The position numbers and the translations under genes were made by a program. This document shows, one piece after another, positions 22,783-33,877 of a stretch of 35,657 nucleotides of DNA (position 1 is the stretch's first letter; each line of letters begins with the position of its first letter). The notes beneath the pieces were generated by a model, which was not told the DNA's origin, did no database searches, and saw only the letters and a list, made by a program, of their open reading frames with translations. This stretch comes from Sphingobacteriales bacterium (GTDB lineage: Bacteria; Bacteroidota; Bacteroidia; Chitinophagales; Chitinophagaceae): assembly GCA_024640465.1 (NCBI GenBank), contig JAHEEX010000011.1, forward strand, positions 1 to 35,657, written 5' to 3'.

Positions 22783-23313
22783 ATGCATACTCCCCAAAAG
22801 TCATTACAGGAAGCCATGCTGAAAGGCGGGCCTCAAAAACCACTCTGGCGCAGATTTAATGGCGACTCAATTGCCCTCCCCATCAAGGATGCGGTAGAAC
22901 AAGCCATCAGAAAGGAATCAGAAAACGGCAATAAGCTTAAAGTTTGTATAGGCACAGATTCCCAGGTAAAAGGCCAGGAAACAGAATTTGCAACTGTTAT
23001 TGTTTTCCTTCGGGAAGGTCGCGGCGGGTTCATGTTCATACATAATGAAAAAACCTACCTCAAGTATTCGATCAAGGAAAGGATGCTGGTGGAAGTAGCC
23101 AAGAGCATTGAGATCGCATACGAATTATGCGATCTTTTTACTGTTTATGAAGTGGATATGGAAGTCCACGCTGATATCAACACCAACCCTTCTTTCAAAA
23201 GCAATGAAGCACTTCGTGAAGCGATGGGCTATATCCTGGGTATGGGATTTGCCTTCAAAGCCAAACCAGAGGCCTTTGCAAGCAGTTGCTGCGCCAATAA
23301 GATTGTGAATTAG
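22783..23313 (+). CDS. YkuK family ribonuclease H-like protein (DUF458)
   Basis: KVCIGTDSQVKGQETEFATVIVFLREGRGGFMFIHNEKTYLKYSIKERMLVEVAKSIEIA and VEVHADINTNPSFKSNEALREAMGYILGMGF. Confidence 0.85.
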   Translation: MHTPQKSLQEAMLKGGPQKPLWRRFNGDSIALPIKDAVEQAIRKESENGNKLKVCIGTDSQVKGQETEFATVIVFLREGRGGFMFIHNEKTYLKYSIKERMLVEVAKSIEIAYELCDLFTVYEVDMEVHADINTNPSFKSNEALREAMGYILGMGFAFKAKPEAFASSCCANKIVN

Positions 23314-23408
23314 AGGATAGAGGTTAGAGGGTAGAGGTCAGCAAAGGCAATGGCTGTTGACTCACTACTCACTACTCACTACGCATTACTCACTACTCAC
23401 TACTCGCC
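23311..23408. repeat. Degenerate heptameric tandem-repeat array A
   Basis: 14 consecutive 7-nt units in constant phase: TAGAGGA TAGAGGT TAGAGGG TAGAGGT CAGCAAA GGCAATG GCTGTTG ACTCACT ACTCACT ACTCACT ACGCATT ACTCACT ACTCACT ACTCGCC. It overlaps the stop codons of both flanking convergent genes. Confidence 0.85.
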
Positions 23409-24028
23409 TCTGCTTTATTGGCAAGGAAATCCAGGTTCATCTTTTCAATGAAGGAAAGCAATTTGTCACGTCCAAGTCTTTTTTCCGCGCTGGTTACAAA
23501 ATGCGGCGGAAGATCTGTCCAGGTTTTCTTCATCGCCTGAAGAAAATCTTTCACATTCTGGCTAACGGTCTTTTGGGTTTCTTTATCTGCTTTGGTGAAG
23601 ACCAGGCAAAAGGGCACTTCCCATTCGCCCAGTTTATTGATGAAATCAAGATCGGTCTTTTGAGGGCCATGGCGTGCATCTATCAGCAGAAAAAGTAACC
23701 CAAGGTTTTCCCTTTGCTGAATATATTCCCGTATCATCTTCTCCCAGTCCTTTCTTTTGGATGCAGATACTTTGGCAAAACCATAGCCCGGAAGGTCGAC
23801 CAGGTACCACTCGTAATCGCGACTGTCAACCAGGAAATGATTGATCAGCTGTGTTTTTCCAGGTGTTGAAGAGGTTTTTGCCAGGTTCTTCTGGTTAACG
23901 ATCATATTGATCAGGGATGATTTACCAACATTACTTCTTCCGAGAAACGCATATTCAGGTTTATCGGGTTTAGGACATTGCGCCAAACTCGGACTGCTTA
24001 TAACATATTCAGCTTTCTTAATCACCAT
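23393..24028 (-). CDS. engB: Ribosome biogenesis GTPase EngB/YsxC
   Basis: GRSNVGKSSLINMI (G1), STPGKT, DLPGYGFAKVS (G3), TKADK (G4). Confidence 0.95.
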   Translation of the reverse strand: MVIKKAEYVISSPSLAQCPKPDKPEYAFLGRSNVGKSSLINMIVNQKNLAKTSSTPGKTQLINHFLVDSRDYEWYLVDLPGYGFAKVSASKRKDWEKMIREYIQQRENLGLLFLLIDARHGPQKTDLDFINKLGEWEVPFCLVFTKADKETQKTVSQNVKDFLQAMKKTWTDLPPHFVTSAEKRLGRDKLLSFIEKMNLDFLANKAEASSE

Positions 24029-26616: not shown

Positions 26617-26728
26617 TTTCTCTTTCTCATTCCTTATTTCTTGTCTTTCACTTTCCATTTTCGACTTTCGATTTTCCACTTCATTTGCCTTTCACTTCCT
26701 TATTCCTTATTCTATATTCCTTATTCTC
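26617..26728. repeat. Degenerate heptameric tandem-repeat array B
   Basis: 16 units in constant phase: TTTCTCT TTCTCAT TCCTTAT TTCTTGT CTTTCAC TTTCCAT TTTCGAC TTTCGAT TTTCCAC TTCATTT GCCTTTC ACTTCCT TATTCCT TATTCTA TATTCCT TATTCTC. It runs into the stop codon of the minus-strand gene. Confidence 0.75.
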
Positions 26729-28388
26729 AATAATCATACTCCCTTCTATGCATATTCCAACGAATACCCAGTGAACCGATAACATTAGTTGGAACATTAT
26801 TCGTTTTCCGCAGGTAGAGATTGGTTTCAATAAAGAAATTCTCTTTCCATTCGTACGCAACCCAAAGGTTGGCATTCACCCATTGTGTTTCAACGGCAGA
26901 TCCGAAATAATTCCCCCTTTCCTGTGCACGGGTATCGTTATCGAGGAAAATATTATTGCCATAATTCTTACCGGCAGTATCCGATCCGCCCCACCATCCG
27001 GCAAGCCGGCCCTGCAGGTACCATTTTGGTGCAGGCTGATAGCGGGCAATGGCTACCAATTCGCGGATATTAGACATTAAGGGATGGGCCAGTGGTTGGT
27101 TATAATGCGTGTAATTTGCAACAGTGTCAAAATGCGAATAAGTGAATGGCCTTACAAGATTTGTTTCCAGTTGCAGGTCAAGGTTTTTCACCCCAAAAGC
27201 ATCAATATATTTTGCGCCAAGCTGAAGGGCCCATTTATTGGCCCACCATCCATCACCGGCCTTCAACTCACTCAATACAAATTCATCAAATAATAATTGC
27301 CCGTAAAACTGGAAACGACGCGCTACATTGGCTTTGAAATCCAGGCCCACAAAAGCATTGTCGGCACTGCCGTTTTGTTGCTCCGCCGGACGCAGGAACA
27401 TGATCGGATTAAGGTATGAGAATTCAAAATGGTTGACGCGGTCGAATACCACCCCCTCAAATAATCCCAGTGTAAGCCATTTAGGTGCGTTGAAGCTGAT
27501 ATGGTGGATAGCCATATACTTTTTGGGGAAAATACTATCTGTACTTCCGCGCTTATACTGTGCCGTTAGTTCAACAGTCTTACTCACATAATTCAGTCGC
27601 CATACCCTCAGGTTCAGGTTGAGGAAAAGGTAATTATTGGGATATTCACTCAGGAAAAGGCTGCGGTAACCATTTCCTATTGACTGCTTATCATACCCAA
27701 ACTGGATATCCAGAAATTTGGCGGCATTTACCGTAAAGCTTCCCCGTGCATCGAAATAATCTACCCCGGTTGTTTTAAATGTTTTGTAGAAACCATTTCC
27801 CGGAACTGCGCGGTATTGATTGATCCTGTTCTGCACAAACTTTGGGGCCCGCTCCTGGTTATCTGTCAGGTAAGTCTGAAAGCCTATGCGTTTTGCAATT
27901 AATCCCCTCGCCACAATACCCCTGGTATTCAGGAAAAGCATTTCGTCGCTTTCATTATCTGCCATAGCCTGTAGTTGTAAAACCGGATTCACAGCAAGAA
28001 AGAAATCAGGATTATCCACTTCTATTAAATTCGCCGGTGTTTTATAAAAAGTATTCCAAAGTGGTTTCTTGCTGGCAAAAGCAGATTTATCCCCGCTAAC
28101 CCATTCCAGGTTGTTCAGTTTGGACCGTTGTATATTATATTTATCAACTTTGCTGAGTTTTAAAGGTTCGGCGTCTTCCTCAAGCCGCTCTATGGCTTTA
28201 ATCCACCATTTTCGGTTAAAGGGCTTAATAAAGGAAAAATTCAGCACAGTATCTTTTTGGGCCTTTATCTCAAGTCGTTCGAGTAAAATATTTTCCTTGG
28301 ATCCTTGTTGAAAATAGGTAGACTGGGCGTTCACAGAAAAAGGAACAATAAAAAAAAGCAGTCTTAATGTGGTTTTTATAAATTGCAT
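26727..28388 (-). CDS. Outer-membrane protein, capsule assembly Wzi/gliding RemB-like
   Basis: Signal peptide MQFIKTTLRLLFFIVPFSVNAQ, beta-barrel-like C-terminus, and Wzi-like stretches such as VDYFDARGSFTVNAAKFLDIQFGYDKQSIGNGYRSLFLSEYPNNYLFLNLNLRVWRLNYV. Confidence 0.7.
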   Translation of the reverse strand: MQFIKTTLRLLFFIVPFSVNAQSTYFQQGSKENILLERLEIKAQKDTVLNFSFIKPFNRKWWIKAIERLEEDAEPLKLSKVDKYNIQRSKLNNLEWVSGDKSAFASKKPLWNTFYKTPANLIEVDNPDFFLAVNPVLQLQAMADNESDEMLFLNTRGIVARGLIAKRIGFQTYLTDNQERAPKFVQNRINQYRAVPGNGFYKTFKTTGVDYFDARGSFTVNAAKFLDIQFGYDKQSIGNGYRSLFLSEYPNNYLFLNLNLRVWRLNYVSKTVELTAQYKRGSTDSIFPKKYMAIHHISFNAPKWLTLGLFEGVVFDRVNHFEFSYLNPIMFLRPAEQQNGSADNAFVGLDFKANVARRFQFYGQLLFDEFVLSELKAGDGWWANKWALQLGAKYIDAFGVKNLDLQLETNLVRPFTYSHFDTVANYTHYNQPLAHPLMSNIRELVAIARYQPAPKWYLQGRLAGWWGGSDTAGKNYGNNIFLDNDTRAQERGNYFGSAVETQWVNANLWVAYEWKENFFIETNLYLRKTNNVPTNVIGSLGIRWNMHRREYDY

Positions 28389-31110: not shown

Positions 31111-31187
31111 ACTTCTTTGCGTCCATTGTGTCTTTGTAGTTATTGTATTTATTTTCGATTTTCCACTTTCAATTTTCGATTTTCTCA
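31111..31187. repeat. Degenerate heptameric tandem-repeat array C
   Basis: Intergenic sequence divides into 11 heptads in one phase: ACTTCTT TGCGTCC ATTGTGT CTTTGTA GTTATTG TATTTAT TTTCGAT TTTCCAC TTTCAAT TTTCGAT TTTCTCA. The last five are clearly related. It shares the 16-mer TTTCGATTTTCCACTT with array B. Confidence 0.7.
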
Positions 31188-32747
31188 AGTTCCCCAGTTT
31201 TCCCGATCCAGGCTTCTGTATTGTATCGCTTCGGCTATATGTTCTGGTAATATTTGTTCGCACCCTCCCAGGTCAGCAATGGTCCTCGATACCCGAAGAA
31301 TACGGTCATATGCCCTGGCAGAAAGGTTGAGTTTATCCATGGCCACTTTCAGTAATTGCCGGCATACGGGATCAAGAACGCAGATCTCTTTCAAAGATTT
31401 ATTACTCATTTGTGCATTGGCATAAATACCCGGATCCTGCATAAAACGTATTGCCTGAATCTCCCTTGCTTTGATCACTCTTTGACGGATCATTTCGGAA
31501 GATTCACCCGGTAAAACCTGTGACAATTCAGTGAATGGCACCGGGGTTACTTCAACATGCAGGTCAATCCTATCCAATAAGGGGCCCGATACTTTATTCA
31601 GGTATTTCTGAACAACCCCGGCAAGGCAGGAACATTCCTTATCCGGATGGTTATAGTAACCGCATGGGCAAGGGTTCATGGAAGCTACAAGCATAAATGA
31701 GGCCGGAAAATCAACAGCAATACGTGCCCTGCTGATGGTTACCTTTCGTTCTTCCATGGGCTGCCGCATTACTTCCAACACCGTTCTTTTGAATTCAGGT
31801 AATTCATCGAGAAAGAGTACGCCATTATGAGAAAGAGATATTTCACCAGGTTGAGGGATGCCACCTCCGCCAACTAACGCCACATCGCTGATGGTATGAT
31901 GAGGTGAGCGAAAAGGCCTTTTTGAAACAAGTGTGGCATGTTCAGGAAGTTTACCGGCCACACTGTGGATTTTAGTTGTTTCCAGTGCCTCCTGTAATGT
32001 TAAAGGAGGCAGAATGGTTGGCAGACGCTTTGCCAGCATTGTTTTGCCGGCACCAGGCGGGCCAATGAGGATCACATTGTGCCCGCCTGCCGCCGCTATT
32101 TCCAGGGCCCGTTTGATATTCTCCTGGCCCTTTACTTCAGCAAAATCTGTTTCAAAGTGATCTTGAGCAGCTAAAAATTCTTCCCGTACATTTACGGATA
32201 TAGGTTGCAGTGATTGCTCACCTCCTTCAAAAAAATCAATCACTTCCTTAATATGACTAACGCCGTAAACATTCAGGTTGTTGACCATCCCGGCTTCACG
32301 TGCATTTGATATCGGAACTATGAGTCCTTTGAAAAGATCTTTTCGAGCTTGAATAGCAATAGGCAGGGCTCCTTTGATGGGCCTGACTGCACCTTCGAGG
32401 CTCAGTTCACCCATCAAAAGATAATCCTGCAGTTTTTCCCAGCACCTTATTTGTTCCGAAGCTCCTAACACACCCATTGCAATAGGCAAATCAAATGCCG
32501 TCCCACTCTTCTTCACATCAGCAGGTGCCAGGTTAACCACGATCTTCGTTCGTGGCATCTCATAGTTATTAGATTTGATCGCACTTTCCACCCGGTACAT
32601 ACTTTCCTTTACCGCACTGTCAGGCAACCCAACAATGAAATATTCCTTACCCTGGGCATCCCAGTTTACTTCTACCGTAATGGTCAACGCCTCCACCCCA
32701 TGCACTGTACTACCGAATGTTTTTACGAACATGATGTGAAAGTACAT
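31185..32747 (-). CDS. YifB/ComM family Mg-chelatase-like AAA+ ATPase
   Basis: VEVNWDAQGKEYFIVGLPDSAVKES, ILIGPPGAGKTMLAKRLPTILPPLT, FRSPHHTISDVALVGGG, GVLFLDELPEF, MNPCPCGYY. ATG at 32732 (MFVKTFGS) is an alternative start. Confidence 0.93.
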   Translation of the reverse strand: MYFHIMFVKTFGSTVHGVEALTITVEVNWDAQGKEYFIVGLPDSAVKESMYRVESAIKSNNYEMPRTKIVVNLAPADVKKSGTAFDLPIAMGVLGASEQIRCWEKLQDYLLMGELSLEGAVRPIKGALPIAIQARKDLFKGLIVPISNAREAGMVNNLNVYGVSHIKEVIDFFEGGEQSLQPISVNVREEFLAAQDHFETDFAEVKGQENIKRALEIAAAGGHNVILIGPPGAGKTMLAKRLPTILPPLTLQEALETTKIHSVAGKLPEHATLVSKRPFRSPHHTISDVALVGGGGIPQPGEISLSHNGVLFLDELPEFKRTVLEVMRQPMEERKVTISRARIAVDFPASFMLVASMNPCPCGYYNHPDKECSCLAGVVQKYLNKVSGPLLDRIDLHVEVTPVPFTELSQVLPGESSEMIRQRVIKAREIQAIRFMQDPGIYANAQMSNKSLKEICVLDPVCRQLLKVAMDKLNLSARAYDRILRVSRTIADLGGCEQILPEHIAEAIQYRSLDRENWGT

Positions 32748-32800
32748 TGCCGGAGAGGCGATTCAATGTTGAAAGCAACGGAAAAAGAAGAGAAAAAAAC

Positions 32801-33014
32801 AGTCACCAGTAGCCAGTTGACAGTCGCTAAAAACAGCCGGAACAATAGTCAGGAGTCAGGAGTCATTAGTCGAGAGTCAACAGCCAAAGGCGGAATTAAG
32901 TAGTAGCTATTACGATTAAATTGAGATACAATTTAAGCTTGCTCACATGTCTTTGGCTGTTGACTCTCGACTAATGACTAAAGACTTGTATTTGGCTGTT
33001 GATTGGCGACTGGC
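32801..33014. repeat. Degenerate heptameric repeat array D with 29-bp perfect inverted repeat
   Basis: Plus-oriented AGTCNNN units (AGTCACC AGTAGCC AGTTGAC AGTCGCT; AGTCAGG AGTCAGG AGTCATT AGTCGAG AGTCAAC AGCCAAA), then inverted units (TTTGGCT GTTGACT CTCGACT AATGACT AAAGACT ...). Perfect inverted arms at 32861-32889 and 32951-32979. Confidence 0.85.
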
Positions 33015-33019
33015 GTAAG

Positions 33020-33877
33020 TTATTTACAAAAGTATTTAAACAAAGTCCTGCCGCTTTGAAAGGGCGTTCCACCGGCATCATCACCATCTGCGTACCATTC
33101 TGTAAGGTATCCGTCTGAAGAAAATTTGTACTTGCTGAAATTCATGGTATATACTTCATCGATTACTCCTGAATCATCATAAAGCGTAACAACATATTTT
33201 TTTACCAGGTTCCGGGATTTCTTACCCAGGTCGAGTCCCATTATATAAAGGGCGTTTTCAAAACCATCAGGCATTACCTGGATAAAGTTTTTTGCAGTCT
33301 GGCTGGCATCATATTCAAGTGTGACCGTCATCACTTTTTGAGTTACACCAGGCACAGCCACAACACCATCAATGGCAACCAGGTTCTGACCAGACCATAC
33401 GAAAGAATACCGGAGAATTGGAAAAACGACACCCGTTATAAATATTTCTTTTTCTACCAGGTAACCGTTACCGTCATACTTGTACACATAAGATAAGGTA
33501 TCCCCCGGTGTCCCCGAAAAGTCTGTAGTCTTGAATCCCTTTACCCGCTTATTGGCATCCGTAAGAAAATAATCTGATGGAGAAACCCTGATAGTATCTC
33601 CTTTATATTGGAAAGTTCCCTGAAATTGCATGGTGCCGCTGACACTATCATAGATTTCAACTTTTTCAGCGAGGCCTGATAAATTGAATTTGGTGAAATA
33701 AGAAAATAAGCCCTGGCCTGTAAGTGAATCAGCAGTTATTATCTGGTTAACAGTACAATTATTTCCCAGGGGGGGATCAACTGTATTTCCACCACCTCCG
33801 TTTTCCAAACTCTTTTCCTTAGCACAGGAAAACAGGACAAGAAATGCCGCCATGTAAAACCAATATTTTCTCATCAT
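33020..33877 (-). CDS. Hypothetical lipoprotein
   Basis: 285 aa ORF, N-terminus MMRKYWFYMAAFLVLFSCAKEKS lipobox. No family recognised with certainty. Confidence 0.78.
   Translation of the reverse strand: MMRKYWFYMAAFLVLFSCAKEKSLENGGGGNTVDPPLGNNCTVNQIITADSLTGQGLFSYFTKFNLSGLAEKVEIYDSVSGTMQFQGTFQYKGDTIRVSPSDYFLTDANKRVKGFKTTDFSGTPGDTLSYVYKYDGNGYLVEKEIFITGVVFPILRYSFVWSGQNLVAIDGVVAVPGVTQKVMTVTLEYDASQTAKNFIQVMPDGFENALYIMGLDLGKKSRNLVKKYVVTLYDDSGVIDEVYTMNFSKYKFSSDGYLTEWYADGDDAGGTPFQSGRTLFKYFCK

Follow-up and report, generated by a model that had tools for sequence, protein, structure and literature searches.

Heptameric repeats of GGGAATC and GGGGA(C/T)T type have been described in Xanthomonas and Nostoc (Rehm et al. 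2015, PMC4692102), with 70-75 convergent pairs per genome in Xanthomonas, and their function was left open by these authors. Direct repeats of the heptamer TAACTGA are found in Beggiatoaceae, Cyanobacteria and some Bacteroidetes (MacGregor 2015, PMC4679880). According to the SPADE survey, heptamers are the commonest intergenic repeats and come without a clue to function (PMC6344855).

The element analyzed in this study is built from AGTCNNN heptads and lies in a window of 35,657 nt (the whole stretch of DNA that was analyzed; contig C21 of genome G000) from an uncultured Sphingobacteriales bacterium of the Chitinophagaceae, whose draft genome (3.80 Mb, 330 contigs) is 94% complete. It is a variant of the already known heptamer repeats. 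With those of Xanthomonas and Nostoc it shares the 7-nt unit, many loci per genome (there >100), the intergenic location, the placement either in sense no more than 50 bp from a stop codon or in antisense directly before an ORF and, as in Xanthomonas, many pairs in convergent orientation able to form stem-loops (PMC4692102). It differs from them in the phylum of its host, in having AGTCNNN as a degenerate unit together with an AACAGCC box, and in sharing the genome with several other unit families that follow one rule. The G3-5 tracts of G-quadruplexes were not found: AGTCNNN has no regular G-tract, and GGG variants account for 58 of 422 units. The TAACTGA repeats are likewise intergenic 7-nt arrays of sporadic distribution, with mixed families in some Bacteroidetes, but in the Beggiatoaceae genome they lie immediately before start codons and hardly ever occur inverted (PMC4679880), whereas those described here lie at stop codons and are inverted. 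As in the long simple-sequence repeats of prokaryotes (Mrazek 2007 via PMC4679880; SPADE, PMC6344855), the heptamer is the commonest intergenic period; neither a positional polarity nor a hairpin arrangement is reported in the portions of these accounts considered here. The features of the locus are collected in Table 1.

Table 1. Features of the inverted heptad element and its flanking genes (window coordinates)
Feature	Position	Strand	Remark
yifB-like Mg-chelatase/ComM family ATPase gene	31185-32747	-	Pfam Mg_chelatase; downstream of element
T7 tract (TTTTTTT)	32793-32799	-	directly 3' of outer stem in lipoprotein transcript direction; aaaaaaa on +
AGTC-type heptad array, left	~32800-32889	+	closing (3') arm for lipoprotein mRNA
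Left arm, perfect 29-bp inverted repeat	32861-32889	+	
Loop between perfect arms, 61 nt	32890-32950	no strand	
Right arm, perfect 29-bp inverted repeat	32951-32979	-	
AGTC-type heptad array, right	32951-~33014	-	sense to lipoprotein gene; opening (5') arm
Putative lipoprotein ORF	33020-33877	-	285 aa

The coordinates given in the earlier note for two perfect arms and the loop between them proved exact. The arms are exact reverse complements (AGTCATTAGTCGAGAGTCAACAGCCAAAG), 29 bp is their maximal length, and the runner-up inverted repeat within 2 kb in the window measures only 20 bp. The described arrangement, AGTCNNN heptads facing heptads of the opposite orientation, was also confirmed, with an AGTC array on the plus strand and then one on the minus strand. 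The left array begins with the outer units AGTCACC, AGTAGCC, AGTTGAC and AGTCGCT, followed by a spacer and the inner units AGTCAGG (twice), AGTCATT, AGTCGAG, AGTCAAC and AGCCAAA; AGCCAAAG comes after the inner AGTCAGG, ATT, GAG and AAC units. The right array mirrors this inner part and, read on the minus strand, starts about 5 nt past the lipoprotein stop codon, in agreement with the distance noted earlier. Gapped complementarity extends past the 29 bp, the outer CAGTCGCCA pairing with TGGTGACTG. The T-tract is one-sided: it is found only where the lipoprotein transcript would leave the element. The sharing of TGGCTGTTGACTC between positions 32954-32966 and 23351-23363 was correctly reported. 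No Rfam match was obtained within the window.

The gap between yifB and the lipoprotein ORF spans 272 bp, and both genes are on the minus strand. No Pfam match was found for the lipoprotein ORF; its orthologues adjoin lspA in 11 genus relatives, and the gene order alr-lspA-lipoprotein-yifB is retained in several members of the genus. The nearest named relatives of the yifB protein belong to Chitinophagaceae. Since relatives of yifB align from residue 1 to 6, its annotated start could be slightly too early. Compared with alr-lspA-lipoprotein, yifB is turned round at three relatives' loci (L037, L039, L040) and codirectional at five others (L036, L038, L041-L043).

The locus is not unique; an invariant and unique locus would, according to the earlier note, have spoken against its reading. 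AGTCN3AGTCN3AGTCN3AGTC occurs 129 times in forward and 126 times in reverse orientation in the genome, with 0 matches for the reversed-pattern control, a frequency beyond chance, and AGTCN3AGTCAACAGCC occurs 56 and 50 times. With more than 250 four-unit matches, the element is therefore one of a large family and not an oddity. A random sample of 80 further contigs, chosen regardless of content (816 kb including the window), was scanned for any short-period self-similarity. Period 7 was the only abundant short-period intergenic repeat, with 50 arrays, compared to 0-2 for other periods except the harmonic 14. The unit families in this sample comprise AGTCNNN with its relatives AGTTGAC and GGTTGAC, and arrays of the GAAAATC/GAAAGTG, GGAATAA, TAGAGGN and ACGAAGT types. 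In the unit census, AGTC was constant and the next three bases variable. Outer units are often AGTCGCC, AGTCACC or AGTCGAC, which gives a G+C-rich stem base, and inner units are often AGTCGTT, AGTCATT or AGTCGGG.

Five other arrays were found in the window (23302-23344, 23348-23413, 26644-26682, 26692-26731, and 31146-31186). Between convergent genes, region 23302-23413 holds TAGAGGN heptads followed by GACTCACTACTC-type heptads, and its arrays overlap the stop codon of a minus-strand GTPase gene (23393-24028). The arrays at 26644-26731 and 31146-31186 are of the GAAAATC/GAAAGTG and GGAATAA types and lie in sense just past minus-strand stop codons, the GAAA-type array 31146-31186 being directly behind yifB. 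Repeats of another kind were also seen. Downstream of ORF 1167-2681, a 20-bp inverted repeat at 2830-2947 flanks a perfect 16+16 palindrome (2873-2904, CTTTAGGGGGAGGACGTCCTCCCCCTAAAG core), which looks like a separate REP-like hairpin family, and a further such family is represented by repeated palindromic GCTCCGGAGGAGCGGCATTCTTGTAG units within one heptad-bounded gap (L016, 5112-5817). At three loci (L032 485-830, L026 1689-2131, and L021 706-911), whole heptad blocks of ~75-120 bp are tandemly duplicated.

For the position counts, arrays were oriented by their AGTC or purine-rich strand. Genes were called by a simple codon-usage ORF picker, so single array-to-stop distances may be off. Among 49 arrays, 37 lie in sense downstream of a gene, and 32 of those 37 begin ≤25 nt from the stop codon; some overlap it. 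The array starts ≤15 nt from the stop in 25 of 34 sense arrays, compared to a mean of 8.1 and a maximum of 15 in 1000 random placements within the same gaps. Single arrays in codirectional gaps are in sense in 14 cases and antisense in 5. Divergent gaps are depleted in arrays (3/84 vs 34/304, P = 0.036; not significant when limited to gaps over 120 bp, P = 0.15), a scarcity shared with the Xanthomonas and Nostoc repeats. Several unrelated unit families obey the same positional rule, so that neither G-quadruplexes nor one binding protein can be the whole explanation. The search for other head-to-head arrays suggested in the earlier note yielded 15 paired AGTC elements, with a AGTCAACAGCC block on each side. 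All 15 are head-to-head (AGTC, core, GACT), and none is tail-to-tail.

The long hairpin that the earlier note had considered possible is strongly predicted. When RNA folding starts at the lipoprotein stop codon, the entire gap forms one hairpin of -89.1 kcal/mol (z = -10.2 against dinucleotide shuffles, with 0 of 200 shuffles as good), and the element folded as single-stranded DNA reaches z = -12.3 against such shuffles. In the predicted RNA fold, a 9-bp stem base CAGUCGCCA/UGGUGACUG is followed at once by U7, the structure terminating in ...GGUGACUG-UUUUUUU. Each of the 15 paired AGTC elements likewise gives a much more stable fold than its dinucleotide shuffles do (median of the best z values, -9.9), good folding being partly guaranteed by AGTC/GACT arms that are complementary by construction at 4/7 positions. 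Arrays of other families that have a single arm do not give a hairpin by themselves. When the array gaps as a whole were cut to 260 nt, their folding did not significantly exceed that of gaps without arrays (P = 0.12), and strong folding was rejected as a property of every array gap.

Like an intrinsic (Rho-independent) terminator, the element places a predicted hairpin past the stop codon and a U-tract after it, and the stable CAGUCGCCA/UGGUGACUG stem running into U7 agrees with the canonical form. Unlike such a terminator, it spans over 200 nt, with a heptad-built stem and a 61-nt central loop. The latter greatly exceeds the 3-10 nt of a canonical intrinsic terminator and speaks against a terminator reading; a simple terminator scan finds no site with such a short loop and misses the element because of the 61 nt between the perfect arms. 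A T5 run after the closing arm was found in 4 of 15 codirectional gaps, including the case that prompted the idea. The corresponding figures are 1 of 20 for the antisense side and 6.6% for background windows; T-tract enrichment across the genome is thus weak. Where an AGTC gap lies between convergent genes, a T-run is preceded by an exact stem base of 6 nt in 12 of 24 cases, vs 2 under the null. Together, the T-run and stem-base counts are suggestive of termination.

The match between the two arms had been taken as a sign of recent inversion-duplication or gene-conversion-like maintenance. This is upheld for copying at the present element but not as a rule, as the arms of most elements differ. 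The order ATT-GAG-AAC (AGTCATTAGTCGAGAGTCAACAGCC) is confined, genome-wide, to these two arms; to judge from this private word, local arm-to-arm copying probably took place here. Two other elements, on C178 (TGG) and C203 (ATG), likewise carry a private word of their own in both arms, which points to copying as an occasional event in the family. Long exact words are often common to the arms of separate elements (at least 29 bp in 1.1% of gap pairs), and a 29-bp match is therefore not astronomically rare within the family. In a permutation test with the 15 elements, arm matching was mildly above chance (P about 0.02), and the longest inverted repeat has a median of 10 within gaps vs a mean of 13 across gaps. 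A general law of arm homogenisation was rejected, most elements' arms being no more alike than arms taken from different elements. Template switching at quasi-palindromes, discussed in PMC4060949, would be the simplest known mechanism for such copying.

Among the genus relatives compared, no AGTC array was found in the orthologous lipoprotein-yifB gap, and no recent empty-site boundary can therefore be drawn. AGTC arrays occur in few congeners. Within the order, the five-unit pattern is present in 47 of 299 genomes, with very many copies in some. Reversed-type arrays (CTGANNN) are numerous in three genomes (G010, G170, G251), where AGTCNNN arrays are absent or almost absent. Other Chitinophagaceae loci show further heptads in the same layout (e.g., L112 339-461 and L141 193-363); unit sequences are thus lineage-specific and the layout is recurrent. 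In relative G046, ~41 bp of self-complementary AACGTTN heptads (L037, 1454-1503) make up the gap that separates the lipoprotein gene from a convergent yifB, and by frame reading they seem to supply the lipoprotein stop codon.

On balance, a hairpin in the 3' untranslated region that ends the lipoprotein transcript, protects its 3' end, or both, is rated a little above an even chance. The main rival is a non-functional heptad satellite, created by replication slippage and ectopic copying and surviving where it is harmless, at gene 3' ends and off promoters, with the hairpin as a by-product; we consider this possible, but less likely. It would fit the lineage-specific units, the orthologous gaps of relatives without AGTC arrays, the general lack of special likeness between the two arms of an element, and the rank of heptamers as the commonest short intergenic repeats of prokaryotes that have no known function (PMC6344855). 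By itself, it accounts neither for an order that is invariably head-to-head (15 to 0), nor for the sense polarity with a start at the stop codon, nor for the adherence of several unrelated unit families to one rule. An array in which AGTC every 7 bp serves as the site of a nucleoid or regulatory protein, or of an RNA-binding protein in the 3' untranslated region, would account for the constancy of AGTC beside three variable bases, and RNA-binding proteins were proposed by MacGregor for the TAACTGA heptads (PMC4679880). We nevertheless regard it as quite improbable: GGAATAA, GAAAATC and TAGAGGA arrays hold the same positions without AGTC, relatives use other units, the 7-bp phasing is out of step with the helical repeat, and there is no candidate protein.

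The dispersed, inverted and intergenic occurrence, together with long blocks common to some elements (e.g., two elements on C99), is also what a miniature mobile element of the MITE, REP/BIME or REPIN type would show, with the arms as terminal inverted repeats that a transposase mobilizes in trans. REP and BIME sequences have a conserved palindrome of 20-40 bp with a GTAG/CGTC-type tag, and MITEs have fixed terminal inverted repeats and a target-site duplication. The present elements resemble REP, BIME and REPIN sequences in being intergenic, dispersed, hairpin-forming and located at 3' ends, but consist of 7-bp units without a conserved palindromic core or fixed ends; unit number is variable, the arms vary between loci, and only AGTC/AACAGCC is common to them. 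Neither constant ends nor target-site duplications were seen by eye in the listed elements, and the architecture is common to several unrelated unit families. No RAYT gene was found in the 94% complete draft, which holds a single Y1 transposase (Y1_Tnp) of only 140 aa, and a RAYT/REP identity was rejected on this ground. A mobile element is therefore improbable. Most improbable of all is that the inverted repeat serves as a recombination hot spot or as an inversion switch, for which its perfect 29-bp arms might speak, as might the orientation of yifB to lspA and the lipoprotein gene, which varies among relatives. The far side of yifB carries a GAAA-type array and no matching partner, for which reason the idea was dropped; flipping the 61-nt loop would alter nothing obvious, and tail-to-tail pairs are absent beside 15 head-to-head ones.

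According to the favored reading of a 3'-terminal hairpin, the lipoprotein mRNA would carry, in this order, the stop codon, AGUC heptads, the loop, GACU heptads and U7, and would fold as one hairpin of >50 pairs, with the U-tract immediately next to its outer CAGUCGCCA/UGGUGACUG stem. This hairpin may act as an intrinsic terminator with a very long stem, so that the lipoprotein transcript would end before yifB, or its 3' end would be protected, or both. In Xanthomonas, G4-forming heptamer repeats coincide with transcript starts or stops more often than control repeats do (PMC4692102), which supports this reading as an independent analogue. Heptad units might grow and shrink through slippage and be copied between loci, and in the present element one arm was probably templated recently on the other, by template switching or gene conversion, which would have given the 29 perfect base pairs. 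A more doubtful idea, which we put forward tentatively, is that growth by slippage at a period of 7 nt keeps the pairing as well as stop codons in every frame, and that such arrays replace ordinary terminators lineage by lineage. A possible role of heptads at mRNA 3' ends becomes directly testable in heptad-rich Chitinophagaceae.
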